The notes below the pieces were generated by a model, which was not told the DNA's origin, searched no databases, and saw only the letters and a program-made list of their open reading frames with translations. Position numbers and translations under genes: made by a program. Positions 6,001 to 36,115 of a DNA stretch of 64,000 nt are shown in pieces. This DNA is from Antedon bifida. Lineage: Eukaryota; Echinodermata; Crinoidea; Comatulida; Antedonidae. The DNA lies in contig OY727102.1 of NCBI GenBank assembly GCA_963402885.1, positions 20,460,001-20,524,000 on the forward strand, written 5' to 3'. Every line of letters starts with the position of its first letter. The first letter of the stretch is position 1.

Positions 6001-7418
6001 TAAATATTACAAATCTTGAATTTATTAAAGCTAAATATACAAAAACAGAAACAGGCCTTTTTTGTAGTAAAATAAAGATAACATCAAAATATCGCTGGTG
6101 GAATATTGTCCTCCACTCGCCTCTTTAAGTTTAAATGCCCACTGGTTCCAAATTTGTTACAATGCAATATTACTGTAGGCCTATCTCCATTGAGATCCAG
6201 CCACTGATACCCACAGCATTGTCATTTTTTCAGTATTTTGCCTTTGGATTTAATGCAAGATTATATTAATAATATTACTGAAAATTGTTTGTAAATTATA
6301 TTATTCTTCAATACGAAAAATATATAACCGACAAAACGCTATTGAAAAAAAGACTAACAAAGTGAACCAAATACTGTCAAGGGGAACCTTTAAACAGAAA
6401 GTACAACAAAGTGTGAAAAGATAATAAAAGTAAATGTGTAAATATGACTTTTCATAGATAGAATTGAGCGGTATAAATCATAGAACAAAGATCAACAGAA
6501 CCGTGCGCCTTATATTGTTATTTGGTTGAGGAGGTGTGAAACAGAATTCCGTCGTATTAAGTTGACTTTTTCGGCTGGTTGGACATATTTAATACCTAAT
6601 TGTATGGTTATTTATTTATTCATTCATTTAGTGAAATCAATAACCTTCGAAATATTTATGTCAAACAAGAAGGTGTGCCGGGATTTAAATACTGTAGTAG
6701 TAATGACCGAGGCATTCGAATTATTTAATCATTTACTTAATTATTACTAATATGATTCCTAATACATTTCGGAATACATTTCATAATAATTGACATTTGA
6801 ACCGCGCATGTATTTCAACATGCATGTTCGTTGCACATTTATAATGGAGACGAGTTCAATTCATGTTTGAATTAAAATCACACAGACAAGTATGTTTTTA
6901 CAGGGTTTGAATGTCTTAATTTCAAAGTACACTACATTCCGGTTTTTCGAAATTCTACAAAATCATAAAACATTACAATTAGTCAATAAAGAATAAATAA
7001 TATGATAGAAATTCTTAAATATATTTCTTATTTTGTAATATTGTTATGTATTTGTTATGCTTTTCTATGTTTAGTTGACAGTAATAACATTTTAGTATCA
7101 CATTTAGGCCTAACAGCAAATAAAGATATTTGTAGAGAAATAGAAGTTCATTTAAAAACACCGGTCAAATAATGCACTTAATGCTTAGTTTTTTGATTGA
7201 TACGTCAGTTTAATAAGTAACTCTATTATCTTGATTTGTCTTCAGCCTTCTAGTCATGAGGCTACGACGAGTTCTGCCGCCGCAACCAATACATCCGTTG
7301 CCGCAACCAATACATCCGTCGTAGTCACAGAGACGGTGCGACATGGACACATTGACGATAGAGAGGATACTATAAGCGAATATAGCCATACAAGTACCGT
7401 ACATTCAGGACCAACAAG
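3085..7418 (+). CDS. Plakin gene exons 1-3: basic leader and Ser/Thr-rich segment
   Basis: Exons 3085-3142, 4846-4910 and 7246-7418 (phases 0>1, 1>0, 0>2). ATG 3085 is the first ATG after an in-frame stop at 3070. The leader is strongly basic (SSKEKK, then DKKKSKKSKS) with a hydrophobic FGFRLPK between. Exon 3 is Ser/Thr/Ala-rich and holds a perfect-register 21-bp duplication at 7279-7320 that codes AATNTSV twice. No membrane segment or signal peptide is visible, so the protein should be cytoplasmic. The leader sits where the calponin-homology domains stand in spectraplakins; it may be an isoform-specific first exon. Confidence 0.75.
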
Positions 7419-10400
7419 GTAATAGTATTCTTCTAATTTTCATCATTAAACCACCCCGTTATCGTACCGGTATGTCGTCACAGTAATACATGCACCAAAA
7501 GTTTCTTGTCTGCTTCTTTTAGGTGTATTTTACAGGTTAAATTCGAGAGATAAAACACGTTTTTAGTATAGTTTAGTTCCTTGTTTGTTTAATATTAACG
7601 TCACAGTTTGTAGACAGCTATTACAAATGTTAACTTATTAAATGAAAATGTATGATATAGAGATGAAAGGGTGATATTTTGTTTAGTACGGATATCAATT
7701 AACTTCTGTACATTGTTAATAGAGCGGAGAATCTGGTTGTTCGTGGAGAAAAAGTTCGTGACCAAATCGAATCTGTCACTCGAGATTTGGACAATATTGA
7801 CTCACAGATCAAAGATGTCGACGGCAAAGCCTCTAAACTGAAGAGCGCAGAAGTGAACAGATTGATATTCATTATAGAGACTAACTTAAAGGTAATCATT
7901 TTAATGTTACTTTTACAAAATTGAATGAACTTACTTTAAAATTATATTGCCAATAATATCGTGTTCCTCTTAAATTCTCAAGGGGTTTACGTGGAAAATT
8001 TAGTGGATTACATTGTCTCACAGCGAACCTATTGGAATTAGTTTTATTATGTGTATTATTTTTATACTAATTTGTAGACATGTGACAAGAATATACACAC
8101 ACTGTATACAAATGTTCATCAGCTTCACGAAGATGGCTACCAAGGTTGGGAGAGACTTCAAGAAAGGTAATTTATAACCAAGATTTTCTGGATGAAAATT
8201 AGTAAATAGATTCTTTCCTTATTAAAAATGATAATGTAAGATAGTACGTTAGTTTGATTCGCTTCTTTTCTTATTCTTAAATCAACATTGAAATTGAGCC
8301 AAATCAGCCGAAAGACCGAAATCAGTACCAGGAGTGAGCCCAACTTAATACATTTTAATGTACAAACCTATATCTTGATTTAACAAAAAAATTCTGTTCT
8401 AAAAATAATCTTTTTATAATTGTATATCATAGAATTGAAGAGCTTCAAAAACGCTCCGCTATTCTCAGCACATTTGAGATTAGAAGCAGATCAGAGAAAG
8501 ACTCCACGATGATCAAGACCCACGGTGAAGGAATGAGTATATCAAAGAAAAAAGAAGAGAAAAGAGAGGAAAGAATTGTCGTCAGAGATGAGATTTATAT
8601 CTTCATGACAGAATGCCTGACCTGGATACAGAAGATGATGGTATGTATAGAAAACGTTTTTGTTGATGCTATTGGTTAAAGTGTATAATATATCTTATTT
8701 AAATTTACCAGAACATGAATAAACTATCTTGATTCCTCTATCTAAAATGCTGTAGTTTGTACCACAACTTTTCACAGCAATTATCGCAGAAACTGGTTGT
8801 TCATAATTCAAACTTTTCACGTGATTTGTATAGTTGTGTGATGACAGTAGAGTACTATTGTTTACTGCACATTATCTGTTTTCCATTTATTTTATTTTTT
8901 TATGTCTATAGTCAACAGTGAACAAAATGTCATATGGCAGTGATGTATCCAGTATCAGAGATCTGTATCATAAACTATCTTTAGAACTTGAGAACATACG
9001 GCAGTACAGAGCTAACCTGGATCAGTGCCAAAGAGATCGTACCAAATATTCTGGAGAGGAACTGAGAAAGTACAATGCCACGCTCCAGAAGATTGAAGCA
9101 GAGTACCAGAGACTGTTGGACGCTGCGCTGCGTCGTCTTCATCTGCTCGAGGTCTTGCTCGAGTTCTCACAAGATGCCACTCGAGAGTTGTCTTGGCTTG
9201 ATGGCCTTGGTGATATAGAAGCACAATGGGAAAATACTCATCCTACTATCAAAGAGATGGAAGATCACATTTTGGTAGGACATCTTAGTTATTAAAATAA
9301 CAATTTAAATTTGTATTTTGTTTGTTCTTTAAACCAAACAAAAACAACTAATATACCTAGACCTTCAGTATATAGGGTAGTTGATCATATTTATCATAAC
9401 GTCTTATTATCTTCTTAGAGTCTGGCTGGCGAAATAGAAAGACATAGAGACGAGTTCAACCAGGTGATACAAAGAGGAGAGACAATGATCAGCCAAGATC
9501 ACCCAGGCTCAGAATGCATCAAGGTATAGTCATTTTATTTCTTCAGATGTCATGTTAATTGCATTCAATAATCCATTGAGAATTCGGATATAAGTGAATT
9601 TCATAGGCAATAAACCTCAAACATATATGTTTCATTCAAAAAATAGCTGGTGGTTTTATACGCGCGTCGGACTGATTTTTTTCTCTCTCCAGAAATACTT
9701 AACTGCGATGAAAGGACAATGGGCGTGGTTGATAGACTTTAAAGCATCAGTTGAAAAACATCTCACTGTAACTCGTGGTAATTACGATGTAAGTTGACCA
9801 TAGCATTGTGTGATCGTCTGATGCTTAGTTTCTTTAATTGGAGTTTTGTTATTAATGATATGTTTAATATTCTGAAGTATATAATACGAATTTATTCACA
9901 GGTACATTGAAATCAGAGAGCCGGATGTAAATGGATTCGTATTAAGCCCTATATAGCACTTTAAACAATATTCAAGATCGTCTCGAGGCAATCGGCATTG
10001 TTGTACATTCTCTTAATCATTATGTGTATTTAGATAAGTATAGGGGCTTATGTCCAAACAAAAAAATACGGAATAGGCTAATATTTATCTTTCATAACAT
10101 TTTTTTTTATATTAAAGGTTCTTGAAAAGAGCTACCATGATGAAGTCACGCTCGCCGTTGAACTACTGACTTGGATGTCAAATGTTGAACACACACTTGG
10201 GTCTATGCAGCCACAGGCTCAACAATCTAAACTTCTAGAAACTCAACTACAAGATGTTAAGGTTAGTCAATATAGTAGATTATTAGCTCGATAATTGCCT
10301 AAAGCTCTTTCTACACTATCAAACTGTATGTGACGACAACATGTGATGTGCCCATATATGGACACGATAATGTCATATCACTAACATATTTGGGCACATT

Positions 10401-13400
10401 ACACATTTTTTTTGTCAAACTAGTTTGATAGTGTAGACAGAGCTTAATAGTTAGTACAGCAGGTATGCATCATTATTGCTGGTTATACGGTCGTTTTTAC
10501 AGAATGTGCACACAGATGTACAAGGCCATCAGAGGGCAATTCGTGATTGCGAAGACAGTATGCAACTGTTTGTTAACATGCACAACGCTGCCCTTGGACG
10601 TGACCAGATTGACGCAATCAATGACTATATATCCCGGATGATAGATTTATTTGATCGTCTTCAAAATCAAGTTAGAGTTCGTGAAAAACATCTGACTAGC
10701 GCCCTCGATTCACTTATAGCTGTCGAACACGATTTGTCAGCGTTGGACATTTGGTTTGAGAAGGCTGTAACAGATATTAGAGAGCTGGGTGGGAACATAA
10801 ACCAAGAAAAAGATGTTGACAAACTGTTTGCACATCTTGATACGATTACAACAGACGTTAAAACAAACACAAAACGTCTGGATAGTATTAAGGATGCTGC
10901 TGAAAATTACATTGCTAGTTGCAAGGTAGGATATACTTAACAGTTAGTAATATTTAATATTTGTAGGCGAATGTAAACAATATCATGAATCGTATCGTGA
11001 TAAGTAAATGCATTATAGTTTCACCCTATGACGTCACTAAAGCGGCAAAACTGACTATATGTATTTCCAATCAATAAAACTACAGTACACGTCGGCGTAT
11101 AAACGCTGAGAATCATCGTTTGTACGCGCGCGAAATATCATGTTCAGTGCTACATATTGATGGTATATAAACTAAACTGGTTAATTAATTTTAAAAACAT
11201 AATATTTTTAATATTTAACTCAACTTAATTAATATAAAAGTACGTTTATTTCTTTAGGAATATAAACATATTCTGAAGGATTTCCGTGAAACTGCACTTT
11301 CCCGCCAATTTAATCGATCGTACGTTGAACCGTCTGATCCAATGTACATACGAGATCGTCTGAACAGACTAATAGCAGATTTCAATCAGCTTCAGATAAC
11401 ATGCGAGGAGACGCATGACAATCTGAAGAAAATTCAGGAAAAACACAGAGTTTTAAAAAATTCACTGTCTACACTAAACTCATGGCTTCAACAAGCAGAG
11501 AATGAAATGGCTAGACTAAACAGGGAGCCAGTAACAACTGATAGAAATACTGTTCAGCAAAGGATAGAACACAGCAAGGTATATCATTTGTATTTCAGTA
11601 TGTTTAGGCCTATGATGTAAACAAGTTACTTTTCATTATACGCAAGCATCATACGATATATTGTACACACAAACCATCATGGTGTGGCCATTTTAAAATT
11701 AATTATGCTGTGATAAAAGTAGGCCTACTATTTTATTTCATTAATAATAACATTAATGTATGTTTAGGCCTTTAATGCTGACGTAACAAACCACGCTAGA
11801 GACATTGATCAACTGAGAGACGATGGCAAGTATCTGGTGCATTCACATCAAGTCATGAAAGAAGAAGTGGACAGAACTCTCGGTAAAAAAAAGCACAGTA
11901 TTTTAAAATAATTAGGTTACCGTAGCTTGCTAATGCTTGGTTCCCACTGGAGACGCAACGTAAGTGAGTTGACCAATCACAAGCGATGGATTATTCGAAC
12001 TGTCACTTGTCATTGGTCAAGACGCTTGCATTGCGTTTACGTCCTTGCGTTACGTAATAGTAACCAAGCTTATGGGAGAAATTATTTTTTTTTAATCTTT
12101 AATTTTTTTACGAAGTATATGTCTATCTAACTTGTTTGCCTTACGTTTGAAATAGATGCGTTTTTCTTGGGCGACAGAGATCGCATACTTAAATACGGTT
12201 ACTTTCTTATTTTTTTTCTCCGTTTTATTGATATTGTAGATGGTATTGTCCAGAGGTACAATGAACTAGAGACAAGTCTCCTAGATCATATTCACAGATT
12301 GAGAGTAGGACTTGATAAAAACCAACATCTAGACGACCTTATCCGATGGTTGGAAGAAAAAGAGAAGCTGGAATTTGAGATGGAAAAAGGAACAATGGTT
12401 GTGATTAAGAGGGAACCACTTTCAACGAGGTTACAGAAATACAGGGTATAGTTATTGTATTATGATTCATGTCTTAGTAGGTCTGTCTTCCAATTTCCAA
12501 AGAGCATTTTGTTGACAACACTGTTTCAGTTTTACCGTGTATCCTCTAGTTATCTCTCTATATTCTCTTTTACGTTGATAGCTTTATAATCTATTTTTAG
12601 GTATTTGAGAAAGAGATTAGTGACTATCAGGACGTGATAGAATCGGTGGTTAGTTCCACATCAGAACTCATCAACTTGGCCAAACCAGAAGAACGCACCA
12701 TCTACCAGTCTAAGCTGGACGACTTTCGGCGGCGACACAACAACTTGATTTCAAATTTGAAAAAGCACGGAGAGCTTCTTCATATGTTTTCAAGTAAACT
12801 GGTTGATCTTGAGTTGGAAGTCGAGAAGTTTGAAAGCTGGCTCTTGCCATTACTTCAAGAGCTTGAAGCAAAAGACATTGCCGAACTAAGCTTATCGGAC
12901 ATGGATTCCAAGTTGCAGGTAAATTTATTTATTTAACTTCTTGTTTTAAATATCTCTTGTAGTTATCTAATTTACATTCTCAGCATCGTCATTATCTTCC
13001 ATTACTGTGCAAAATCTCGCTTTAGTACAGCCATTCATACATTATTTTCTAATTTTTAAGATGGCAGCTCAATATATAAATCGTCAGCAGATACAGTACC
13101 AGAAGATCCTGAGTCTCGCAAGGGAATTGTTTGATCATCCTCGCGCTAATAATACCACACAACTTTCGGCGATGATGATGAACTTTAAACATAACTGGGC
13201 CTCGTTAGAAGCCGCACTTGCTACAAGGTTGGTATCTTAAGACGATGTTGAAATAATTTATAATGATAAGTATATCAATGGTAGTAATTATGATGATTAT
13301 GAGGGATGAAATATGAATATAGAAAATGGTATTGATTATCATGTTATGTAAATCATCATTACAATTGATGACGATTTAAATTAGCATACGGCATAAGTAG

Positions 13401-16400
13401 ACCTACATTACTGGTGCATTCTGTAGAGTTTATGGTTTTAATGTTGATTAATACAAAGAATATACAACATAAATGTATACTACTGGCATACATTCGAATA
13501 ATATACAATAGAAACTTGCTTTATTCTTGTTCAAAACTGTCCCTTTTTTTTCTAGACGTGGACAGTTTGATCAGCGTAAATTGACAGAAAAGCGATATGA
13601 GAATATGGCAGCTGACGTACGATCATGGCTTGACAGAATGCAACATACCCTAGACAGCATTACATTGAAGGCAAGAGACGAACATACAGTGGACATGCAG
13701 CTCCAGCAACTTAAGGTATTACAAATATTTCAATTTTAAGATTAGCTTCTTTCTTGTTTTACGTCATCATTCTTGTGTATTAAAAATGTGGTTGCTTATC
13801 AAGTTGCATACAGTAGACATGCAGCTCCAGCAACTTAAGGTATTACAAGAACAAGTATTTCAATTTTATGATTAACTTCTTTCTTGTTTTACATCATCAT
13901 TCTTGTGTATTAAAAATGTGGTTGCTTATTGATTTCAGCTAACACAGGAAGAAATTGGCGACAACGAGAAGCTGATTGACGACATTAACAAGCTAGGCAC
14001 AACATTGAACAACCTCTTTAGAGAGCACCAAGTGAGCATAGCAACTAGTCATCATCAAAAGTCAGACGAAGTTGAAGAAGGTCTGCAACCTAGTTGGTCA
14101 ATTGCTAGAAGTTCTAATTCTCTAGATGGCGCTCTTGGTAAGAATCGTTAGTTTATATTTATTATCTCATCGTAGCATGATCTATTTCTAAATCTACTAA
14201 CAACTTACCGTACGTGCTATTGTAATGGTTAATTAAGTTGATATTTATATGTTTTAAACAAAATGTAAATAATAATTTAAAAATGTTTTCGATCAACAGA
14301 TGTGGGAGAGACTAAATTCGACAAAGAACTTGCCTTAATAAATCGACGCTATGAAGCGCTAAAGAGGACAATATCTGGTTTTATTGAGGACCTTGCCTTA
14401 ATTCGCCTATGGCTCAGCAAGCAGGAAGATGTGACCGCTACGAAGTTATCCGTAGAAACCCTTCTCAGACGACTTACCGAGAAAAAGCCAACGAGCAGAG
14501 ATTTAAATAAACTTTCAGCCGAAATAGATGCTTTCTTGGTAATTATCTAAAGAATTAGACAAATAAATAAGTAGGCCTATAAGATAAAGTGAAAGTATTT
14601 CTAAGGCCTTGTCTACAATATTAAACTTTGTGTGACATAAAAATGTTATGTGCCCATATATGGAGATGATGATGATGTAATATCACTACTATGTTTAGGA
14701 ATATCACTACCTTTTTTTTGCACATCACAAAAATATTACTCAAAACTGTTTTATTGAGTATCACTAGTGTCTATTTCTAAGAAATTAATTATTAAAAATC
14801 TATGCAAAATCTTACTGACCAGAAATTTACTATTAGGCCTATATTGCATTTTACAGATTGTAAGTAAGGAGGTTGACGAACTAGATCCGTCAATTCTGGA
14901 AGTCATCAACGCTGGAGAGACATTTCTTCGAGAGAACCATGACACACTCACGACTGAATGTTACTCTAAACTTCAACAACATATCAGTGAACTTCGAATC
15001 ATGTACGAAAAATTGAAGAAAAATGCCGCTGAATGGTTAAGCAGTTCACACACTGTTCTTGATGAACTGGAGCAAAATCAGCAAGATTCTGTAAGTTACT
15101 AAAACAACTCCGGAATAGACATTTTACACTGCTTTTTCTCTATGTTATATCAATTAATAATTTATACATTTTTGTTTTACCGCATAGGCTATGTTGAGTG
15201 AGCAATATAGAAATGCAGTCATGAGCCTACAGGATCTCTTAGATTGGATAAGAAAAGCAGAGAACAACCTGGCAAGTGAGGACTCTATTGGCAGCTCAAT
15301 ATCCACACTTATGAGACAACTCACTGAACAAAGAGTAAGTTTCCTATTGTGTTTATTTCAACTTTATCTTGGCTCGTTAACAGCTGAGATGTATTCTTGT
15401 ATTGTACATAATAGGGCAAAATACAAATAGTCTCTATACGCTGTTTAGCACAAGTGTAAAAATGAAAAAGTTGATGAAAAATAAACCAGGAAAAAGCCTA
15501 ACAAACCGAATAAATTGACCAAAACAACAGAAAAAAGTCCGAAAGCCAAGACAAGCTTGCTATTTATTCACAAGTGTCATAATGATGTGAGTTTATATTT
15601 TATTTCTCATGTATTTTGCCCCAATTCCTTTTAGAAACTGCTAGATGATATCCAAGAACATCAGACTCCAGTTGTAAAGTCAATAAAAGATGCGCAGGAG
15701 ATGCTACAAAAGTATCGGTCAAGACTTAGTGAAGATGAAGTTGATAAATTGACTGATCTTAACTCTGAATTAAGCCATCGTTTTAATCGCGTCAATGGCG
15801 AGTCTGCAGCACGTTTTACACAACTCCAGATAGCTTCTCAAGATCTTCCTAAATTCGAAGAAGAAACTTCCGAATTTGAGCGTTGGATGGCGGTAGCTGA
15901 GCAGCATCTGGATACGTCCATCAAGACGGTCAACAGAGACCTCTCCACTATGCGTCAGCAACATGTACAACAGAAAGAATTTAATGAAGATGTTCTCACA
16001 CATTTGGCCGACCTAAAGTTTATCATCAAGGCTGGAGAGAAGATTATAGAAATGTCAAAGGTCAGAATATATATATATTCTAATATAATTATTAACATGT
16101 TTACATAGCAGTATACGTAATCGATATAAATATTTTAAAATTACAGAATTATGAAGAGTCACTATTGAAGTTCAGAACGAGCATAAATGACTTCCAGTCA
16201 GTTTCTTATCCGGGATTCACAATAATATCAGACCGTTTGACCAATGTGACGAGACGTTACGACCGCCTGAAAGCTGGAAGCAGCGAACATCTCTCCAGAT
16301 TGAGTGACGTCATTGGTTTGCAACAGTTGTTTGAAGATCGATCAGATAAGTTTCATCGCTGGCTACAAGAGACTGAATCAGCATTGCGTAGATTGATATC

Positions 16401-19400
16401 AAGTGGGAGTGGCCAAAGCATGCAACAGCAGACTAACAAATTACAAGTATTGTATTCATATAAAGCTTTGTTCTCACTACGCAACGTAACGCAATCTACA
16501 CAACATAAGCAAATGCCCTTCCAATAATTGTGTTTGCTCCCGCCTGCGTGAAATCAAACCTGTTTGCAGCACTATTGCGTCGTCGATTCCCACTTGTGAT
16601 TACGCAATACATGCGTCGATACGTTGCTGCGTTGCGTTCTAGTGGAAACCACGCTTTATGATACATATATTATGATACATTAATGTGCAATATATTTAAA
16701 TCATTTTACTGTATTAAGTAAACACCTGATTTTAATACAGTAATATATTTCTCCCGAAAAGCCAATTACTAATTTGTTTCTAAAACTCAAACGTCATTCT
16801 CATTAGAGAATACACTTTAGTAGGCCTAATAAAATTGTGCTCGTACTCTATACTACTGATAGCAGCAAAGTACCATAATTATATTTAAAAAATGGGTAAA
16901 CCGTCATTACTTTTTTTGTAGCCTACGTGAATTTCAGAAAGCATTATGTAAATGTAACTGTTTTTTGTGTTTAATTCGTATAGTTAATGCAAGAGGATTT
17001 AGTGGCTCACTTGCAAGATATCGACCAATGTAAAGAGTGTTGTCGAGAACTTGGTGACGCAGAGCCTAAGCTGGAGCCTGGCGCAAGAAAGAGAATTGGT
17101 AAATATAGACACGATTGTGATAAAGAGCTGTTTATTTGAATATTGTAAGGAACTGGTCATACAATCTCGAAAACAAAAGCATAATTGCCTTATTTTTTAT
17201 GTATCATTTTGTAGTTGTTATCAGTTGATATTGGTTGAATACTTTTATTAAGCGCCTTTTTGTTTTAATAGATGACATGGTTAGGCGTTACAATGCACTT
17301 GATGCCGACATAAAGTCGCACAGTTCCCAGCTTCACGAGGGCCTCGTGCAGTCTCAGAGTTTCCAGGAAACCTATCATGACTTGTTGCAATGGCTGGAGC
17401 TCATAGAAGCAAAGGTTTACAAGATGGAAAAAGGAACGCTGTTGATAATCAAACGACCTCCACTTATTGAAAATCTCCAAGAGGTTAAGGTATCAAATAA
17501 AATATATATATATTTTTTTTCTTCTTACTTTCATAGACGCAGCCCACGCAACGTAACAAAATGCCCTTCCAATAATTGTGTTTGCCCCCGCTTGCGTGAA
17601 ATCAAACCTGCTTGTTGCGCGTCAACGTCAGCATGCCGTACTTTGACCTGATTTCACCCCGCGCGTACTTTTAAGTTAAGTACGCGCTGTACTATGTTTC
17701 CGGTGTTTTTTGCCTTATGTGTATTCTAGTGGGAACCACGCTTTAAGCGTAATGCCATAATGATTACGTTGTTTGACTGCGCCCCTTGTGCAGGTCTATT
17801 TAGTTCGTTTACGATACATACACGCCTATCTGTTAATTGTATAATTATTCTAATTTATTATTTATTAGTTGTGTACTAAATTATGTAATTGCGTTTGAAA
17901 AATAACATTTTCCATTTGTAATGCTTTAAAGACACTTGAAGGGGATATTGAGAGCCATCAGTCTGCGATACGAGCCTTCAACGCCATGGCAGAAAAGATT
18001 ATCAAAGACAGTGAGCCACAGGTTGCAAAAGCAATGCAGACAAAGGTCACTACATTCAGAAACCGATATGATGAACTAATCGACTCTGTCAAACGTCATG
18101 GAAAAGTAGTTGACGAGTTTATTACAAGACTTGACGAATTTGAAAAATCAGTGGACCAATTAGAAGATTGGGTGCTGCCAGTCTGTGATGAGTTAGACTC
18201 ATGGGCCGCGGTAACTCTTGACTACAGCCAAGCTGAAAACAAAATCAAAGTACGTATTTGTTTCTGTTTACTGTCAAACCCTTTGATGCTCAATGTTATA
18301 AACCTAATTCAAGACCGTACTAAAGCGTGGTTCCCACTAGTTAGTTAGTTTCAGACACGGTATAATAAGAACACTTACTAATATATGTTAATGACATATT
18401 ATCTTTTAGAAGTTATTTCAAGAACAATCCGTTCACCAAAATAAATTGAAAGAGATTCACAGTCTGGGGCAACATCTGATTCAGGACCCTAAGGCTAGTG
18501 ATACGTCTTATGTGGAATCTGTACTTACCAGTGTGGGCAACAACTGGAGAGCTCTTGATGATCTTCTGCAAAAGAGGTACGTAGTATATTTTATTAAAAA
18601 CTCTTTCTAATAACTTTAATAAAATAGTAAGGATGATTGATTGAAGATGATGATTACGTATTATAATATGGGTTCAAGGATGCAGCCAATCAGACGCGCT
18701 GAAATGAAAATGAATTTTGCGCTCTTTATGTTTTCACTATCATGCACTCGAGTGCAAAGTACGCAGCAAAAAAGCGTAACAGCACTCTGCAGAATACCGA
18801 TCGCGCTAGACTCGCTGCACGATTTACGAGTACGAACCGCCGCATCTCCGGCCACTAACAAACTCTGACTCGTGCATTATTTGTATAATAATCTTTTATC
18901 TATTTATAGTTTGTTTCATGTATAATTTGAATTAATTATGTTTCTTAGGAGCAAGCAAATAGAGAGTAGAATCAGAGCTAGTAGGAAGTATAATCACGCG
19001 TATAAGGAAGTTGGTCATTGGCTGGATAGCTCAGAGTACAAAGTCAAACAACGTATACCTTTTCCAAATGATAGGAACACGCTTAAAAACCAATTGGAAG
19101 ATACCAAGGTATGTATCACACTCCTATTAAACTATACTACCACTAACGGTCCTACACCTGGTTGGGAAATATAGTTGAGATTTGAGCCTAGTAGTAGGCC
19201 TAATAGCGATATCAACGGTTTTAACAATTTGAAATTAATCTCCAAACAGAAATTCCAAAGTGACGTGTTAAACTACAAACCAACCATTAATGATTACGCA
19301 CGATATGGGCAAATACTAGATAGACTGACACAAGAAGAAGCACTTGAGTTACATATTCCACCCAGATTCCGCTCTTTGCATATGAGTACAAGTAACATCA

Positions 19401-22400
19401 CACAATCTCTGAAGCCGAGGTCTTCGAATGATGATGATACTAAAATCAGCGCTGAAGGTATATTTTGTTAAATAAGCATAATACTAAAAATGAATATGCA
19501 TAATATTAAAAATAAATATGCATAATATTACTTTTCGTCTGAGGTCCAATCAATAGATAGATTTCGTGTATACACCACGCCACTCACAGCTGTTGCTTTT
19601 TTACTGTAGCCGAGTGGCGCGTCGTGAAAACGGAAACCAGACCAATAACATGGGACCTACTGTACTTTTAGGGTTTATTGCAGTACAACAGCAACAATAT
19701 GATGAGTTTTTTAAACCTTTTTTCTACATAGTTGATTCACCAATCCAGCAACAAGTCGTAGTGGTTGAACAGCGTTATGCTTCATTGACCAAACAGTTGG
19801 ATGACGTCATCGATTTCCTGCATATCGTCGAATTGTATATCGATAGAAAGCTAGATCTCACCAATTTACTCGATTGGGTAACAGAGGTCCACACGCATGT
19901 CAACCAATCGGCGCCAAGAAGTCTAGATATAAACCAACTAGATAGAGAATTTAAATCATATCAGGTAACACGTGACTGGCACAACTACGGTTTCATTCCA
20001 CCCCACCTCATCCCCTCACACCCAGTGACTGTCCCATCCAATTCCAAATAACGACGCAACGTAACGCAACCGCCGCAACATAAGAAAATGCCCTTACAAC
20101 AATTGTATTCGCCCCCACCTGCGTGAAATCAAACCTGCGATGTTCACAGTACTGTTGCGTCGTACTATATATGCTTATTTAATAACCGATAAGTCACGAT
20201 TGTACACTTTTCGAGCTGCCATAAGTTATACAGTACCACCACTTACATTACAAATTCCTATGTTATAAAATAAGGTCATTCATGGTGATGTTGACTCAAA
20301 GAAAGCAGCCATATTGGATTCTGTTCATGGTGCTGAACAATTTCTTTCTGATAAACGTCACCGATTGAACGCCTCGCAAATCGATGATCTTCAGAAGTTA
20401 ATTGCAGAACTACGTAATCAATACAAGCTTCTGAGTCATAAATCTGGAGATGTGTACAAGAAGGCAGAGGAAACACTCAACAGTTTACGTTTAAGTCATG
20501 ACGAACAGGTATGGATTATTCATAACAATTACTTTTGATTGGTGGTTGTTGTTTCCGCTATTCAAAATGTCTTAATCTTGTGTTACAGTAACTCTCAAAG
20601 AGTTGTTAAAACACCACTTAGTAAAATGTAATGTGGTGTAAATAAATAAACATTACAAGCTTTTTAAAATTTTAAATAATAAATTCATGAGTTTTAACTT
20701 GCTCAGTGAAGGCTACATTTACCTACGCTTGCTTTAATACACCTCAATAAGAAAATACTTTGTATAACCAAATAAGGTAAGGCAGTATGTGTTACACCAA
20801 AAGTAGACCTAAATGTATGTCATAATTGTAGGTAAAACTGCAGGAAGAATATGATGCCATTAATGGGAATATCAAAGGGTTACTGGATTGGGTAACTCAG
20901 GCTGAAAACCAAATGAGCTTAGGCCAGCAGCTATCGGAGCAGGTTACGTCATTGTCAGACCAGCTTAGTCAACACAAGGTATGTTATGTTTTCGTGGTTG
21001 GAGAAAAGTATAATAATTAACAGGACGGTTTATATTGTAAGAATTAGTTCAACAATAAATATATACTAAGTAATATACTAAGTAATCGTCTAACTTATAT
21101 ATACTAAGTAATATACTAAGTAATCGTCTAATTTTATTAACCATCAGATATTCAACGAGTCGGTAGGAGGTCACCAGGAAGATGTGTTGGAAGCCTGCCA
21201 GGAAGCCCAGCATTTTCTACGACAGGCGCTTGACAATTTCACCTCAAGTGACATCGAAAACCTACAGAAGGCCGTCACCAGCTTGAGATCTAGATACAAC
21301 AGCCTTAGCAGCCATTCGAATTCACGTCTTACCAAACTTCTTCAAGCTCGTCATGATCTGGAACAAGTTCTAGCAGAGGTCGAAGAATTTGAAACGTGGA
21401 TGTCTACAGCCACTGGACAGTTGCATCGATCAATGAGAAGTATCGGAATGGATGCTGATCGTGTTAAACAGCAATGTGAAGAACAGAAAGAATTTGCTGA
21501 AGATGTTATAAGCCAGACAGCCAATTTAAAGTTTATCACGTTGGCAGGCTCCAACTTTGTAACATTCTCAAAGGTAACTTAGGACTTTTGAATAAGCTTA
21601 TTTGTTTAATGTGGATCGATCAGACTAATAGTTATTATGCAAACATAAAATAAATGATATGTCATTTCATGCTTTTTTGTTTAATTTCATGCACAGGAAT
21701 ACCAGAAAGCTTTGGCAGAGTTCCGAGACTCTATAGAAAACCGCCATTTTTCTTCGTCTTTCACTGGTCACATTGATAGCAGTACATTGTCTGACAGACT
21801 AGGTGACCTGAACAATCGATATAAGCAATTGAAATCACAATGTCAGGCTCACACGGCTCTGATGATGAAGGTTTTTGACATGATGCAGATATACCAGTCA
21901 TCATCTCGGTTCATGCATGAATGGTTAGAAGATATGACTGAGGTTGTCAAGAAACTCGTGAAAGAAGAGGTATCTGGAGAGCCAGGACAATATCAAGAGC
22001 AGATCGACAGAGTAAAGGTATTAGTCTCAATAACCTATTCCACTTGATATACTTTGTCCTATGTGGCGTCTCCTGATACAAATATATGAAATGATTCTAT
22101 ACGCTTTTTAACATATAATTCCTAAATCCACGTGCTGATTTGCATCCACTATTGGTACTAAATACATCAAATGAACATTCATAATAAAAATATATTGATA
22201 TAATTATTATAATGTAACCATGTACTCTAGGATGTATCTGACACAATTATTCTGCATGGTAGAGAAGTCGACAGATTGAAGGAATCAGGAAGAAGTCTCT
22301 ATGACGTTCATGATGACGTCAAGCCGAGTGTACAAACGAATCTAGGTATTCAACTACTACTCATTCTTTACACTAATATCAGCATTCTCATAATTACGAA

Positions 22401-25400
22401 TCACATGACAATGTCTTGTATTATAAGCTTTACAACCGGGTGAATATGGTTATAATACACATACATAACACAATAGTATGTTACTTGCTTTATTTCAATG
22501 TTAACTTTAGAAACGGTCACCAAAAGGTACAACGATCTAAAAGCCCAGCTTTCTGACTACAAGATGAAGCTCACCAGCAATTTAAGTGGCAACATTAGTC
22601 TTCGAGAAAGACTAGAAAACCTCTTGCGACAAATTCAAGACGCAGAGCATATCTACGCACGCCTTGGACAGATTCCAATCGTGTTGAAGAAAGAACCTCT
22701 AACAAACATTCTACAAGATTATGTGGTGAGAAAAATATTATTTTATAACGGATTTTCCCAATAATACGAACCTTTACCTTTACAGCAGCAATCACTTTTA
22801 TGATGTTTTTCTTGCTAGAATCTGAAGAACATGTTAACTGCTCTACAGTCCGTTGTGACAAACATTAATCGTGATGTTACCAGCGTTGTTCAGAGTGGAA
22901 GGAGTAGCTACCTTTCTAACATTCAGATGAAATTAGATGACATGAACTCACGTTACAGCCGGCTTTCAAGCCCCGTCATGGACAGATGTGAGTTTGTTCA
23001 GCGCCTACTGGAGAAGGTAAATCTTTTGCAGAGGGAAGCAGATGAAGTAGAAGATTGGGTGCTTCCAGAGTTGGAGATGTTGCAGTCTGCGGATATTACT
23101 AAGAAAGAGTTATTAGAACTTCAGAGCATACTACAAGTAAGTCTTACGAACTGCTAGTACATTTAGTGATAATTATACTATAAACATCTAGTTATAGTCT
23201 AGTTCCTTGTATAATATCAATACATAATAAACCTATGCACATTAGATATACAATCTAAACAATGTATATTACAGAAAATATTATGCAGTTTATATTTGTG
23301 TTAATATTTAGAAAACCGAAACCGGATTAGACAGGTATGCTCTTCAGTACAAAACGGTTATTGATATTGCTGATGAGCTGTTATGTGAAAAGGACGTTGC
23401 CGACTCGTCGAGTGTAGTAGAGCTCCAGGAAAGTATCCACGACAATTGGAATGGCCTTAAAGAAACACTTTCTTCTAGGTATGGACAAAATGACACATAA
23501 ACTATACCACTTATCCGAAATAAATTCCAACAAAATCATTGTATGTAATGATAATTATATTATTAACTTATTGTAACAATAGAAAACTATTAGTGGAGGA
23601 AAGAATCGAAGCGATGAGGCTCTACAACTTTTTATTAAAAGAGGTTATTCCGTGGCTCGCAAGTATGGAGAGAAAACAAGCCCAACTTGGCAGTGTGCCT
23701 AGTACTATGGAGGACATACAAGCACAGCTTAATACAATAAAGGTAACTGCAACATTTCGAATGAGAGGATTCTCAAAAATGTTCAATAACTATTTGTCAA
23801 AATTGATAACCTTTTCATGACATGACTACAGTCCACTGCGCAGCTGCCGAGTCGAAAGAGCTTGATACTTATCACACATTTATACACATACAATGTGTCA
23901 AAAACAAATGATACTAATAAATTATAATAACTAATTAAACAATATTTATTTCAGCCTTTCAGAAGTGAAGTAGCTGACTATCAGACGAAAATCTCCAAGC
24001 TAAATGTTGCTGGCGCGAAGGTAGACGAATTGATGCATGACGTGCCGTCAATGATGGGCCGCTCATTCCGACGATCTTCACTTCTCATCACGTCATTACC
24101 AATGTTTGATAGATTCGGTTCGTTATTTTCCTCTAAAACATCCGGAGAAACGTCAGTTTACCACCAAGGTATAGTCTTAATTTCAATTTCTATTATTATT
24201 ATGTGTAACATACTTTATAATTAAAAACTAAGAAAGTTATATATCTTTTTTTTATAGACGATTCTGAGGTACAACAGCAAATGTCCGACATAAACAAACG
24301 TTATAAATCGCTGTCAGTTTCTCTTGAAGACAGAGAGAATGAGCTTGAAATGAACCAAGACATTGCAAGAGTTCTTCTACCAATTGACCAGTTGACCAGT
24401 TGGACTGTGAAAACAAAATCTAAATTATCAAATTCAAAGCAATTATCAAATGATATCACCGGTGCTCAAGCTGATTTAGACAGATTATTGGTAAGTAAAG
24501 GCCATCGTGTTATTTCAATGTATACAACAACACATTTTGTAACACACAACAGAAAAAAATTCATTTTGAAAAATAACTTAATTTGACAGAATATCCATCA
24601 AGAGATTCTTGATCAGCAGTTGCCAGTACATAAGTCTTGCGACAGTGCCAACAAGTTACTGCATGACAAGAGGGAACATCTCAGCCAAGAGCAGTATGAT
24701 ACTGTTAGCGACAGAAGTGGAGACCTTAAGGTCAAATACAACGACCTGTTAGTGATCTTTAACGACGGCAAGAGATCGTTGGAAGAAAATATGTTAAAAT
24801 TACGTATTCTTGAAGACGAAAGGGTATGTTTTTAAATTGACCTGCTGGGCAACTACGGATTCTTATTCTTACACTTACTGTGTTAATTTCTAGCAATGTA
24901 TAAGATTGAATAAAACACTTTCCTAATACGTGTAAGCAAAGATATAAAGTTAATTAATCAGAAGTATAAAATGTATATTCTGTTTCCTTTTTAGATTCTC
25001 TCTGGATATTTACGTTTACTTTCACATTTTCATTTTGCTTATCTATCTAGTCAATTGTTTACATCATGCTCTTGTTTTATCAATTTACCTTTTAACTGTT
25101 TTATAATTATTATCTATAAGATTCTGATTAAAGGAAAGCTGGAAGACTCAGCAACATCACTTACCCAACTTGTTGATTGGATAACTCAAATGGAAAAGAA
25201 GTTAGGATCACAACAGCCTATGGCTGACCAACTAAGACCACTCAGTTCTCAGATTGATCGACACACCGTATGTTTTATAATGGTTTTGTAAAATACTGAT
25301 TCTTTCTGCAATTATCATACATCTTGCATCTTATACATACTACATTCTATCAAATAATTGATTTTACAGGCACTGAATGGTGAAATTGTGTCTAGACGGT

Positions 25401-28400
25401 CATCTGTTGTTCAGACCATTGAAGATGTTCATTTGTTACTCAGGCAGTACGGAGACAAAATCCGCAAAGAAGATACCAAACACCTGGGCATCGGAAACGA
25501 CCTAATGCAGCGTTATGAAGCTCTTAGCAGTCAGTCACACAAACGGGTAAACCAGTTGACATCCGGCTTTGATGACTTACAGAGATACCGTGAAGAGTGT
25601 GATGCTTTCCTTCAATGGTTGCAGACAACAGAGATCTCTTTAGACAAGCTCGAGAGGTCAAAGGGTCACGATCTCGTGAATCTTCAACGCCAGTTACATG
25701 ATATGGAGGGTCTGGTTGAACAAATTAGTGATCAGAAAGGAGATTTGAAGTTCTTAAAGAGAGCAAGTCAACGATATATTGATATTTCTAAGGTAATATA
25801 ATCGACGAAATTACTTTCTCTACAAGGACTTTATACATCATTTTTATAAATGATTGCTTTTGTTTTTCCTGACCTTGTTTATACTTTGTATTTTTTGGGT
25901 GAAATGGAACCCTCCATTATTTTACATGATATCATTCATGATATATTTATATATATATTAATTTCTTAATGATTTGTATTCTTCTATTTTGGTTTGACTA
26001 AAAGAATTTCCAAGATGGAATTTTTGAGTACCGTCGACGTGTTGATATGGATCATAGTTATGCGGAACTCCCAGAGTCACGTCAGATCCAAAACGAACTA
26101 TCGGACATCTACGAAAGATACACTGCTTTGAAGGCTAGTTTGCAAATACGTTTAAAACTACACAAAGAACTTATAAACAAACACAACAAATATACAGATT
26201 CGATCAATGTGGTGCTGCCATGGATACAGAGTGCATATAGCAGTGTGTCGAATTTTATCAAAGAACCACTTGAGACAGAGCCTGAAGGAGTTGCCAGACA
26301 AATGGAACAAGTTAAGGTATGTATCAATTTTTTCTCCTGAGAAAAGGAGAACTCGCTCCAATTGTATATGTTGCAAAACTTAAACACCTTAAACATAAAG
26401 GCTATTATATCATTTGTTTACACATTCATGTTTTTTACAGACACTTCTCCATGATATTGTCTTGCATACAAAGGATATTGAAACGCTTAAAGATTCTGGA
26501 AAGAGTTTGGCTTTAGCCCAACCAGACATTTCAGACAAGGTTATGGGAACTGTTGGTGAGTTTTATTTCTACGTTTATACCCTATATGTTTTCTACCATC
26601 GATAAGATAAAGTAACATTAAATAAAGCGAATTTTATATAATACAATAATTAGTTTTTAGTGCATATCTGTATGAATGTTGGAGTTGGAGGGGCACGCCC
26701 TTTGGCGATAGTAATCTTTGACAGCTTTTGTCTCTCCTCAGTGCTCCACTTTCACGTTTTATGTTATGTTTGTATTGTCTTTACTGAAAGGAATAAAATA
26801 AATAAAATAAAATAAATATATTCTGACATCGACATTTACTATGATATATTCAGAAAGTGTAAGTAATATCATTATAATATTGGTGTAAACTCTGGAGCTA
26901 ACATTGTTGTGACCTGTCCTGAATGATGCAAAGATATACAGTATATGTATACAATCAAAATAATTGTTATTATATGTTAACTCAATGCATAGATGATGCA
27001 TCCAAAAGGTATGAATGGATGGAAGCCCAGCTAAGCCTTCGTAGAGATGAATTAGAAAGAAACTTAGGCTTATCACGAAGTGTCTTAGATGAATTGGATC
27101 GTCTGCTTGCATGGTTGGAGGTGACAGAAAAGAAATCTGCCAAGGTCGTTAATGCTCCTGTCGTTGTTAAAAAAGACTCCATCTACGAAATTGTGCAACA
27201 ACTGAAGGTAATGAAATGTGACATAATATAACTTTTGTAATATTATGAAAATTTCAATTTTCGACGATCTAGGAGTGAGTTAGGCTATGTTAATTCATTT
27301 TGGTTTTGGGGAATTTGTGACGCGCTTACTCACTCTCCTCATTGGTGGTTTTAGGTCCAGGCCGACGACACATCGATGCTTAGATCCTAGGTCGCCGGTT
27401 GTTGCAAATCGTCACTGAGAGTATTAATCTTATGTTATTATGTTGAGTATCGCCGTGGACCGATAAGGAATAATAGTCAACTGTAAGAGAAACTTCATTT
27501 TTGTAATATTACCAATTTTTTTTTACAGTTTTATGAGACAGATATTGATAGTCATCGACCACCATTTGAAAATGTCAAAGAGTCTGGCCGACTCCACATC
27601 CAGAAGAGTGACCATCAAGCCGGGCAGAAAGTCAGATCCAAATTAGATTCACTAACATCAAGGTTCAAACGCCTAGAGGGAAGTGTTTCGAATCATTCAG
27701 AATTCTTACAGAAATTGTTATCAAAGTTTAACAACCTCCAGAGCGAGGTAACAAAGTTTGAAGACTGGATGACACCAGTGATTAGTGTTCTTGAATCACA
27801 TGATCTAAATCACATGAGTTTATTGGATCTTGGATTGAAACTAATGGTAAGAATGTTTACATTTCGAGAAAGAAGTGAATGTTCTTTATTACAAAAGTTC
27901 AAAGCAACATTTTTAATTCAAATTATTAGGCATAAGTTCAGTTTTATTACATTATTGTGTATTATATATGTAGGAGGTTCAGCGGTCCGTTGACGATCAA
28001 AAGTACACTCTCCAGGACATTAAACGTCTGGCTAATGAAATTACACGTGACTCCAAAACATCAGATAGCAGCGCTGTGACGGAGATTGTTTCAAATCTTT
28101 TACACAACTGGGAAATACTGGAAGAGCTTCTCAAGAAAAGGTTAGAATATACACTATTTTATGTCGCAAGAGTTTGTAAAAAAATCAAGTCCTTCCAAGT
28201 TCTATATAACACTTCCTTTGTTTCAGAAATCAGCAACTAGAAGAGAAAGAAGCTGCTTATAAACGCTTCAATGATTCCGTCAAGCTTTGTACTGATTGGT
28301 TAGAAAGAATGGAAGAACGAGTCAGTCGTCTAGATATAGTGGCTGTAGATGGAGAGATACTGAAGAAACAATTGGAACAATATATGGTTAGTTTTTTTAT

Positions 28401-31400
28401 GATGACGTTCATGTCTTCCATCAGTCTAATTCAAATCAAACTACTTTAGCAATATCGCTGTGATTTTATTTAATTTGAATTTTATTATATTTTCAAACCA
28501 AACCAACAGCAAAATGAAATTCGCGAATAACAGGATAATCAAATAGTTTAGCCATTTTGTCCAGGTACAAATGTTGTACGAAGATTTATATACAGATTCC
28601 TTTTATTACATACAATACAATATAACATATCTTTATTTTTCAGCCTCTTCGCAGAGAACATTCTAGTTTTTCGACGTTGCTTGAGGAATTGAACAGATAC
28701 GGTAAAGCGATTGAAACATTGAGTGAAGATCAAGAAAGAATGGTTCGCTTGTCAGCTCAACTCCGCACTCAGCAGACTGACATGGCAATAGGTCGCCCTG
28801 TGGTAGGAGGAAGAAGACGAAGAGCTTCAATTGGCTCTGAGTTAGACTTCGGCTCATTTATGCAGGATGAAGGTATCCAATGGGTCAATTATTTTACAAT
28901 TATTAATCATTTCTCATGGTAATGTTAAATAATATTCAAAATATGAAGATGATAATATAATTGTGTTATTAATTATTGTATTTTCTCCAAACTTACTCAG
29001 TATAGCACTGTTTATTTACTTTTAAATCTGTCGTATTTTAAGGTTTATCTGATATACAACGCCAAATCATGGATGTCCAAGATCGATATCAAGTTCTTGG
29101 CGAGAAGCTAGCTGATCGCGAGTATGACATCACCACAACTCAGAAGACTGTTCAGCAGTACCAGATGGAACTTAACGAGTTCAGCAACTGGTTGAAGAGA
29201 ACAGCCCAAGCCTTAGAAGGAGGTGTTACGTCAGTAGAAAGTATAGATCAAGCTCAGAAGCTACTTGAGAAGCACGAGGTAGGTTGACGTTTGAAAGAGT
29301 AAGAGAGGTCGTTGTTAGTGGCACTGTTAATTACTCTTTACTTGTATTGCAAGTCCTCAATATTTTGCACATTAGGTCGTTTTGGCTGATTTTATTTGAC
29401 TATGTAGTTTGCAGTTTGTAGGTGCGCCATGTTTGAATGCTATTCTTGTTTTTATAGGTTCTTCGTAAAGATATAAATGACCATTACAAATTCATGGAAT
29501 CTGTGATGGAACTTGCTCGTGAATTAACCTCATCAAAGAAAGATCATCCTGTTGGATATGATAAAATCAACTCACAGATGAAAACCATTGGTAAGTTTGT
29601 CCACAATTAGTATACAAAATAGTAGGATTGTTATCTCTTTAGTTCTGACAGATTTTAAAACAAGGTCTATGTTTGACCTCATCAACTATTTTCTTTTATT
29701 AGAGGAGCAGTGGATTGAACTACAAGAAGGTCTTAACATTCGAGGGAAAGACATACGAGGAATTATAGACGCACTGAATGACTTTGAAGTTAGCTGGAAG
29801 CAGCTCAGACTTTGGCTAGAGGAGACGGAAATGATTATGTCTGTTTTCGGACCAATTGGAATTTCACCAGAAATCCTTCGAAACCAGTCCTACCAAACTG
29901 AGGTATACATTTACTGTTTTGTATAAATGTGGTTTTTTTTGTCACAAATGAAGTTAAATATTTAGTATCAATGTGTCCTGATGTTTACAATAATTAGTCG
30001 ACTAAACTGAGAATGCTTTAAAAATCAATCAATCGTTTTAGTCTTTATATTATAATAATAATATATAATATATATAAATAATGTTATTTTAGGTGTACCA
30101 GAAACATTTTCCTTCCCATGAGGTCCTCCTTGAAAACATGAAAAAAAGTAGCCAAGCATTAATCAACCGGTTCTCCTCTCGTTCACGGACGTCATCTCCG
30201 ATCAATGATAAAGTCAATGACGTCACCAGACTGTGGACTGTTCTTTATCACAAGCTTGAAGATCGTCATGACACCATTAACAGTGTCTTGCAAAGTAGCG
30301 AGAAATTTCATACATCTCTGCAAGGCTTTACTGATTGGTTGATTCAGTTTGGAAAGGTTGTCAAAGGTCTTTCTCCAATTGGTGGCAGCAACGAGCAAAT
30401 AAAGAAACAGATTGAAGAAACCATTGTAAGACCAACTTAAAATCTTTGCAAAAGCATATTATTGTTATTAAACAATTAGCTTTAACCCGATTTGAAATAG
30501 TTAATGGCATGCCTCATTCAATTGCTCATTTAATATTAACTCCTAAAATATTGCTACCTTTGATTATAGGCTCTTCAACGAGACGCGGCTCATATGAACC
30601 CACAGCTTCAAACTCTGTTGTCAGGCCAAAGTAACCTTCTAACACTGAACCCTGAAACGACAGCTAGGCTTGAGATGAATCTAAAGTTGGACAGCGTACA
30701 AGTTCCGTTTGATGAATACAAAAGACGACTCGGTAAAAAGTGACCAATAAGAAAACAAAATAATGTGATGTGATATTAAGTTTCTTATATTTATTTGGAA
30801 AGAATATTCATCTAGAATGGTAAACTGTATCATACATTTTGATTATTTTATTTTATATTTGTTTACTTCAGATGAACGCTTGGCTAGACTAGAAGGAGCA
30901 CTCTCAGAGGTCGATCATCTAGATGACGCGATAGCTGCAATGATTAAATGGTTGGAAAGTAAAGAAAGACTATTCAGCGTGTCTAAACCTATTTCAGCCA
31001 ATCAAGATTCTCTCAGATTACAGATTACACAGCACCAGGTAAACTGGTTATTTTCATAAGGTTGATCGCAAATAGGGTGCGCGATGCATGTTGGGAAGGA
31101 TTTGGGAGCAAGCGTCACGACGCGTACATACGTGATTTGTTGTTTGTACGTACGCGTCGTGACGTTAGCTCCAAACCCTTCCAATCATGCATTGTACAAT
31201 GACGTTTCTCGCGAAATCAAGCTATTTGCGATAAACCTTATTATCAGAGAAATGACTGGCGTATGGCTCTGATTATAAGGATATTTGTGTATTACATTGT
31301 TATTATGATAAATTGATGTAACTATTGATTCGACTATATACATACTTTCTATATTACATATTTTAGGAGTTAACAAAAGAACTTATAAGGCAAGCATATA

Positions 31401-34400
31401 GCTACGAGAGACTTACGGATCAGATAAAATCACAGATGTCAAAGTTGAAGAAAGGCCCAGAACACGACATGCTATCCAGTGTGTATGACGACCTAGTGCG
31501 ACGGTGGGAGACAGTTAACCGGAAGGCTGGTGATACGGATCAAAGGTTAAGAGAGTGTGACAAGATCTGCCAGATATTCCTAATGGATAAGTACCGGTTT
31601 AGTCAGTGGTTAAGCAGTGCCGAAGAGAGACAAGTCGACGTTGGCGCCCTTGTACTACGAATGGACGTTATAAGAAGACAGCAAGATATACTAAAGGTGC
31701 CTTTCTCTTATAAATATATATGTCCATAAAAGAGTTGTACAGCTACATATAACATTGGATTATAGGTTGATGTTTTTAATTTAATATGTATGAAAGAAAC
31801 AAGATGTCTGGTATTACATTATTGTTTAACTAAACCATAAATAAACAGTAAACAATTGCTAATTGTTAATTTTGAACAGGAAATACTTTTCTGTAATATT
31901 ATTATGTATGTTACTTGCTTAATAAAAAAACACAATTGTTTCTCTTATAGCAAATCGAAACGGATATTAATAACCATATCAAAGATTTTGAGAACACAAA
32001 TGGAAGTGCCAATAACCTAATAGAGATGACTGATGTCGACCATCAGTATATCAAGGACGACGTTGTGGACATTACAGGGCGTTGGAAAGATATGAAGCAA
32101 GGTGCGACAATTAATTCATTTCGGTTCACGTTTAATGTGACTTAGAGATAATATCTGTGTCTTTCACATCGTGATACCATAACTTAGAGAGAATAATATT
32201 CTTTAAAATTCTATTCAAAACCGTTTTGATGAAGTTAACAAGGTGCCCAATGCAAATGGTTTGAAGATTAGGCTATAACCGAGAGCTTGAACATTTATTC
32301 CAGTGTGTTTGAGGTTAATGTTGCATTATACTTTATGTTACAGATGTTGTAGATTTGAAAAGGTTATTTGAGAGCTTATCCAGTACACTGGTTGACTTCG
32401 AAGATCGTCATGCTAAAGTAATGCAAGTAATCGAGAAGTGGGAACACAGACTAAATTCAGGTGCCATTAATGGCAAAGACTTTAAGGTATAATACGCATT
32501 TTATACAGTATGGGGCAACATACACAGCAAAAATATAGTGCTAACATACAAATGTTTTAAAATACAGGACCAATTTCTTCAAACGTACTGTGTAATTTTT
32601 TAAATAAAATAAATAAGGTATTTGTTTAATAAATCCATTTAATATTTTATCTTAAGAGCGTTCAAGAGGAAATAAAGGCATTAGGTGAAGAAGTGGCAGT
32701 TATTCAACATCTGATGGACCTCCTCATTTCTAAAGCACCCTCGCGTGTTGATAGTTTTGATGTAAAGAAAAATGTAGAAGTTATGAGGAAACGTTACGAT
32801 GCCCTTGTGGCGACGTTAATTGACCGAGAAAAACTGTTTGAGACAGGCAGAATGGAGACATCTTCATTCCAGGTATATCTTACTTTACTATAATACTAAA
32901 TTTTACATTGAAAAAGCACAAACACATATATGTATATTTATAAATCAAATGCTATTAACTATTTGTAAGGGTCACATATAAAATCATATTCCAGTTCAAA
33001 TTACTTAAATAACTGTATAGGTATATGTAATAGAGTAATTAGGAGGTTCTAATAATCTCATATATAACACACACACACAAATAACAACAAATGTAATTTA
33101 GTCATCAATAAGGCAGAACATACCATGAGGATGATAACTAACTAATAAACAAACTGTGTTCTTTTACAGAAAATGCTAAACGAAATTCATGCTAAGTTAG
33201 CAGGACACGAAGACGTACTGGACCAGCACAAACGAGCGCAGGATGTCACCACGTTGTTGAAGCAGATCGAAGACGTCAAAAAGATCTACAGCAGCTTAGA
33301 TGGCGTAAAGAGTCTCTTAGACCAGGCAACCCGCATATTTAGGGTCATTTACGATAAAGGATTTTTAACAGATCCTGAAGGTTCAAGAGAACAGGTAATT
33401 TGAATTCAAACTTGGCTCTACTCCAAAGTAGAACAACTTGTGTAGGCCTACTGAGTATTCTAATACATAACATTTACTGTTATGATTAACGATGATAAAA
33501 TAGTATATTATATCAACATGCTATCTGTTATAATTATAAATTTTCAGTAATTGCATTGCATGATAATAATGTGAATAAAAGTAATGTTTACGCCACAAAA
33601 GAGAAAAAAAATTACATTACATTAATTCAATTACCAAATAACATTAACAACAAGATTACCTAACTTTCGAGTTAAAATAACGATAAGTGAGGCATTTAAT
33701 GAATAGGCAAACTGCCTTAAAATGTGACATGTTTCGATAAACTATTCTCATCAACGTACTTATATACCAATAGGACAGGTTGTATGTAAATGAGGAAGTA
33801 ATTAGCATGATAAAACAATACCTTTTTCAATATTTAATTGATTACGTGTTTGATAATTAATAATCAATTATTTCATCATTACAGCTTGATATTCTTAACA
33901 AGCGTTTTCATCGAATGACCGATCAGATCACAATAAGATTGGAAGACACAAAGAAGATCATTGTGAAACATGACGAGTTCCAGGATGTTGTAGAGCTGAT
34001 ATTGAGAAAGTTAAGTGCAGCAGAAAGCCAAATGCAACACCAGAAAGCGATTGGAAACGACCTGGAAACACTAAAAAGTCAGCAGTTGGAGGTTCAGGTA
34101 ACGTTTTAGCGTTTTATGTTGTAGAGCAAGAGTTTCTACAACTTATACTAATAATACATACTGAATTTCTTGTTTTTTAAGACTATCTTTTTAATTCATG
34201 ATTTAGTTAGACTTATATGTTATCACCTGATCGTTGTTCTAAACTAGTACATAGGCCTACAGAAGAACCCTTCTCTCCAAACATTCCCAAAATTGTTAGT
34301 AATTAGAGTTTCATTTATATATATATTTTTCATGTAGGCTAACCATCTGCTTTATTGTGATGTTAGTCTAGTTTTCAGTTGGTTTATAATAAACAATACA

Positions 34401-36109: not shown

Positions 36110-36115
36110 AATAAA
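36110..36115 (+). terminator. Polyadenylation signal AATAAA, plakin gene
   Basis: AATAAA 124 bp after the TAA, followed by a T-rich run at about 36121-36132. It is the nearest match downstream of the stop on this strand. Confidence 0.6.

Follow-up and report, generated by a model that had tools for sequence, protein, structure and literature searches.

A seven-repeat cassette in a crinoid spectraplakin and in its probable shortened paralog

Giant rods of spectrin repeats raise the question of whether they are organised above the level of the single repeat and, if so, where the larger units arose. We address it at a locus of the crinoid Antedon bifida: a stretch of 64,000 nucleotides (assembly GCA_963402885.1, contig OY727102.1, positions 20,460,001 to 20,524,000, forward strand; hereafter the window) that contains a long rod-coding gene. 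A preliminary description had reported that a cassette of 11 exons is repeated in tandem along this gene, which it took for a plakin, and had interpreted the arrangement as a new giant rod. The observation is confirmed, and the interpretation stands in part. Block duplication, clustering by slot and plakin descent are supported; a content of eight repeats, an origin within the window gene and the uniqueness of the layout are not. Very probably the genome's own spectraplakin, a gene of the MACF1/dystonin/Shot kind, has in the window gene a shortened and faster-evolving paralog.

The cassette and its period

The exon chain was built ab initio by dynamic programming from splice position weight matrices and codon log-odds, a procedure blind to any period. 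The raw chain held 66 exons, from 7246 to 36475 on the forward strand. In curation the 30-bp exon 13825-13854 and the segment 36437-36475 were removed, the last exon was extended to the stop at 35986 and, in slot 2 of cassette C, the program's 20395-20508 was replaced by a choice made on homology, 20275-20508, which has a weak acceptor. That replacement and the dropped 30-bp exon are the only two manual overrides inside cassettes. The latter is a decoy splice unit, called as an exon by the gene finder, that arose when the 3′ end of the slot 10 exon of cassette A was copied into the following intron. The curated model has 64 exons that join in phase into a single frame of 4749 codons, in a window free of N (Table 1).

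Already in the raw chain, 13 of the 55 pairs of exons standing 11 places apart were identical in length, against a maximum of seven identical pairs at any lag from 1 to 30 in 10,000 shuffles of exon order; in the curated chain the count is 19 of 53. The cassette is recovered with the exon lengths and places first described. Its copies are here termed A to D. The slots of 115, 318, 167 and 160 bp have the same length in all four and those of 234 and 147 bp in B to D, which makes up the six constant slots previously noted. Copies are 21-34% identical, with slot identity and exon lengths retained. BLASTP aligns them end to end (B with C, E = 1e-113, 25% identity; C with D, E = 9e-107, 26%); cassettes were compared pairwise because a self-BLAST of the whole protein gave the full-length self match only.

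Peptides from matching slots align: of 60 between-cassette comparisons of exons, 54 picked out the same slot as best. The repeats likewise group by slot rather than by cassette (same slot best in 26 of 28, a count that includes two units made wholly or mostly of plakin-domain exons and wrongly entered as A1 and A2). Mean Z, taken by repeat lag, peaks at lags 7, 14 and 21 (18.8, 13.6 and 13.8) as against 1.3-4.1 at the remaining lags up to 23. From these peaks the cassette is seven repeats, coded by 11 exons, where about eight had been estimated; its genomic period, measured from one slot 11 start to the next, is 5311, 4705 and 4689 bp, not roughly 4.5 kb. Slot, repeat and lag comparisons agree that a block of several repeats and several exons was duplicated to build the rod. 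All repeat borders in the block are phase-0 introns, so that whole repeats or blocks can be gained or lost without a frameshift. Out-of-register alignments between cassettes also occur (B with D, shifted by one repeat, E = 2e-26), as they would if the similarity between slots were merely general spectrin-repeat likeness, a reading that the lag peaks refute and to which we give next to no credence.

A spectrin-type array of the same genome, used as a control, shows no clean block period; an array of this type, at C9:2057421-2067332, holds at least 28 repeats in one open frame of 3586 codons. The only matches of note in a PDB search were general spectrin-repeat relatives, namely dystrophin, spectrin, utrophin and plectin (dystrophin alone for one query), with weaker unrelated matches below them. 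An AlphaFold model of slot 4 (142 residues, four sequences) has a helix at 2-26 and a single helix at 33-141, and with a pLDDT of 89 and a pTM of 0.43 is too weak to interpret.

In every cassette the slot 11 exon carries, in the same repeat, a Ser/Arg-rich stretch of variable length, which in the last cassette includes RRRRAS; these stretches are possible phosphorylation sites. Introns of the array also contain repeats resembling miniature inverted-repeat transposable elements (MITEs).

The canonical spectraplakin and the descent of the window gene

A GAS2 profile search of the genome listed four matches, none of them within the window. One, at C15:12364514, marks the end of a spectrin-repeat locus that shares contig C15 with the window and lies 8 Mb from it. 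The exon chain over C15:12250001-12370000 describes a canonical spectraplakin (12.254-12.366 Mb) whose CH and SH3-containing plakin domain precede a pair of giant exons and a long rod, with EF hands and GAS2 at the C-terminus. Pfam confirms CH, SH3_10, the spectrin rod, EF and GAS2, with one CH domain in the scanned piece, and at E 0.01 assigns no family to the giant exons. Many small low-score exons (score under 8 and under 125 bp) were dropped from this chain before cassette analysis.

The rod of this gene carries nine cassettes, M1 to M9, with exon lengths largely as in the window gene, so that a layout supposed to exist in no plakin is present in the spectraplakin of the same genome. The array comprises 62 repeats (one 35-residue piece of M1 left out), and its exon lengths peak at lag 11, where 27 of 86 pairs are identical; in 10,000 shuffles no lag from 1 to 24 gave more than 15. 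M1 is without slots 11 and 1; M2, M3, M5 and M8 show fusion or splitting of some adjoining exons, or a shift in the prediction. When the slot 4 exon of M7 was used for a census of the 315.6-Mb genome (E ≤ 0.001), it matched 12 places, of which the spectraplakin accounts for nine and the window for three; slot 4 of cassette A was unmatched and no third locus appeared. Predicted exons of 134 and 200 bp stand about 23 kb apart in the spectraplakin (12322984-12345794), the corresponding intron of the window gene being 112 bp, and an exon that looks immunoglobulin-like by eye lies within that gap (12327609-12327873).

Ahead of cassette A, at 7723-9788, lie exons with counterparts in the plakin domain of the spectraplakin (tblastn: 27% over 204 columns, E 9e-20; 43% over 61, E 3e-9; 48% over 27, E 0.001), those at 8078 and 8433 being assigned by order only. 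The segment 8912-9788 had been a candidate for slots 1 and 2 of cassette A; this was rejected when the paralog comparison placed it among the plakin-domain exons. Behind cassette D the rod is again collinear with the paralog, the exons at 29458 and 32344 being assigned by order only. Beyond its match the last exon runs on into an unmatched tail and a TAA stop, with AATAAA at 36110. By the collinearity of its exons with the canonical gene, the window gene is a spectraplakin, and thus a plakin, by descent, and in this sense its first label was right. The only Pfam families above curated cut-offs in the window gene were Spectrin and, in three of seven pieces scanned, SYNE1-type repeats (PF25034, over the cut-off, 35 bits); among control fragments, dystrophin scored 21.3 bits with this profile, below cut-off, and alpha-spectrin gave none. 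A nesprin identity suggested by these matches was dropped given the spectraplakin paralog; a pattern scan confined to Pro-rich open reading frame ends gave eight matches, none KASH-like by eye.

The N-terminal and C-terminal parts of the paralog were searched by tblastn against 104 kb, that is, the window plus 40 kb upstream. No match at E ≤ 0.1 was found to its CH exons, its SH3 exons or its EF-GAS2 end. The upstream 40 kb contains other coding-like segments on both strands, and any distant CH exon would therefore lie among or beyond them. The true N-terminus of the window gene was not found, a Ser/Thr-rich exon being the first detected.

In a tree of the 13 cassettes, four of the 10 inner branches are starred: those pairing A with M1, B with M7, C with M8 and D with M9. 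Forcing A to D together costs 204 log-likelihood units, and B to D together 179. Pairing across genes and the constraint costs show that the cassettes predate the gene duplication. Cassette A is equidistant from M1 and M6 (32% each). In sub-trees by slot, its slots 3-5 group with M1 and its slots 7-10 with M6, each alternative being rejected, and slot 6 gives no decision between the two; its slot 11 exon opens the first repeat of the following unit and matches M7. These sub-trees show cassette A to be a hybrid of M1 (5′) and M6 (3′). The split affinity puts the joint, on both sides, somewhere between slots 5 and 7; it is in register, and five cassette lengths are missing.

A proposed history and its alternatives

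We propose that in an ancestral spectraplakin the tandem duplication of an 11-exon block of seven spectrin repeats would have produced at least nine copies, which would have diverged to 21-34% identity with each slot still recognisable and its exon lengths maintained. A later duplication of the gene, in whole or for the most part, would have placed a copy 8 Mb off on the same contig. The window copy would then have undergone in-frame losses: of the giant exons and, with them, the SH3-bearing end of the plakin domain; of five cassette lengths, from slot 5/6 of cassette 1 to slot 7 of cassette 6; and of all that lies C-terminal to nine or ten post-array repeats, the EF hands and GAS2 among it. 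It is also without CH. We infer that the absent parts are losses in the window copy, which is favoured over gain in the main gene because M2 to M5 have long branches of their own. The four cassettes of the window would thus be inherited remains of a nine-copy array, one of them hybrid, rather than a block multiplied within the window gene. This history forms part of what we consider highly probable for the shortened paralog.

Several points weigh against it. B and M7 fail to join in the sub-tree of slots 7-10, and the pairing of C with M8 falls under star level in that of slots 3-5; forks among M2 to M6 are poorly supported in the cassette tree. The first-listed match is off its collinear place for 14 of the 64 window exons (two tied with it), a count in which one true partner may be absent after the dropping of small low-score C15 exons. 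The tally of exon lengths equal modulo 3 in the two genes (50 of 51 position-matched exons) omits 11 exons facing M8 (fused or shifted predictions) and the unpaired exons at either end of the window gene. Branches of the window copies, at about one substitution per site, have roughly double the length of the main ones, which would also suit relaxed constraint.

A common ancestor with about four cassettes, A already being as it is now, is an unlikely starting point, from which the main spectraplakin would have grown to nine after the gene duplication. The exon lengths of the main cassettes are very close, as recent expansion would give; however, the end branches of M2 to M5 (1.06-1.49) against those of M7 to M9 (0.49-0.58, after the split from the window copies) suggest that the former separated earlier, and the two-way affinity of cassette A is most simply a deletion. 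A decaying pseudogene without protein product would account for the doubled branches, the missing binding domains and the unmatched tail of the last exon. Yet 4749 open codons, in-phase exons and usable splice sites at about one substitution per site argue for a protein product, as do the agreement of exon lengths modulo 3 and the polyadenylation signal, and we regard decay as rather improbable, somewhat more so than late growth of the main array. That the cassette multiplied in the window gene alone, as its strong internal periodicity might suggest, can be dismissed given the nine copies in the spectraplakin and the rejection of A to D as a single clade (p-AU 4e-29).

Table 1. Features of the window, with exon lengths in bp
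Feature	Position	Strand	Remarks
First detected exon, Ser/Thr-rich	7246..7418	+	without convincing counterpart in spectraplakin paralog
Plakin-domain remnant, six exons	7723-7891, 8078-8166, 8433-8640, 8912-9274, 9419-9523, 9693-9788	+	matches paralog up to just before SH3 part
Cassette A, slots 3-11	10118..14137	+	144/423/321/115/206/318/167/160/199
130-bp tandem duplication	13683..13929	+	slot 10 exon of cassette A: its 3′ end and the intronic copy
Cassette B, 11 exons	14300..19457	+	239/234/147/426/300/115/218/318/167/160/208; ortholog of M7
Cassette C, 11 exons	19732..24168	+	233/234/147/426/321/115/215/318/167/160/214; ortholog of M8
Cassette D, 11 exons	24258..28872	+	233/234/147/423/312/115/215/318/167/160/229; ortholog of M9
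Slot 11 exons with Ser/Arg-rich stretch	13939-14137, 19250-19457, 23955-24168, 28644-28872	+	cassettes A, B, C, D
MITE-like intronic repeats	16476-16562, 17524-17610, 20051-20137, 11953-12036		dispersed repeat (three copies, array introns) and a similar-looking inverted repeat
Non-cassette rod	29043..35392	+	236/133/200/333/163/167/330/151/143/216/225/213/165/171; collinear with post-array exons of paralog
Last exon	35474..35986	+	start matches paralog exon 12352206-12352532, 42.7% over 110 columns
OAS1_C (2′-5′-oligoadenylate synthetase C-terminal domain)	43638-44015		E 6.5e-13; further exon-like frames upstream
Reverse-transcriptase frame	44638-45519	-	
NXPE-family gene pieces	47527-49582	-	
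Minisatellite array	50900-51190		ATTTGCGTATTTTGGCAA-type units
Secretin-type seven-helix receptor piece	60454-60768	-	

Possible function and known systems

The predicted product would be a rod of about 40 repeats retaining part of the docking region of the plakin domain. With CH and GAS2 missing, it should not bind actin via CH or microtubules via GAS2. We tentatively suggest that it could serve as a spacer or scaffold, or could compete for partners that bind the rod of the full spectraplakin, although we would not put this at even odds. More speculative, and on balance doubtful, is the idea that the cassette is a functional super-repeat whose slots are conserved as partner sites at fixed spacing, the window paralog being a ruler of equal gauge but lesser length that has no actin or microtubule ends of its own. 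If a spectrin repeat is about 5 nm long, a cassette would span about 35 nm, a spacing comparable to the half-pitch of actin and to the rulers of titin and nebulin.

The spectraplakin rod is organised above the single repeat, as nine blocks of seven, with four in a natural shortened paralog. The growth and shrinkage of giant cytolinker rods are thereby opened to test, as is the idea that slots keep their identity as binding sites at fixed spacing; the hybrid cassette is evidence that whole blocks were lost in register. Should the array be absent from MACF1 and dystonin of vertebrates, a core cytoskeletal linker would have undergone a lineage-specific expansion.

Among titles and abstract starts of the open-access papers listed we found no description of a multi-repeat cassette in a plakin, and in the open-access literature no paper combining 'spectraplakin' with 'echinoderm'; the layout may be present yet unremarked in automated annotations. 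Block-wise super-repeats as such are already known from ANC-1, titin and nebulin; within the same titles and abstract starts, none was found described for a spectraplakin. With spectraplakins (MACF1, dystonin/BPAG1, Shot, VAB-10) the window gene has plakin-domain exons and a spectrin-repeat rod in common, and differs from them in showing no CH, SH3, EF or GAS2 in the 104 kb searched; the seven-repeat cassette it shares with the canonical spectraplakin of its own genome. The nebulin super-repeat consists of seven modules, and titin/connectin too has multi-module super-repeats, but both proteins are sarcomeric and built of other folds. Spectrins are reported to have enlarged their repeat arrays by internal duplication (PMC9145010). 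Array growth there is alike, and the control spectrin-type array is without a clean block period. ANC-1 of Caenorhabditis elegans, a nesprin ortholog, is described in PMC8139857 as a giant cytoskeletal protein with six tandem blocks of 903 residues. Both it and the window gene are built of tandem blocks of about 900 residues, those of the window gene being 21-34% identical, multi-exon and composed of slot-specific repeats.
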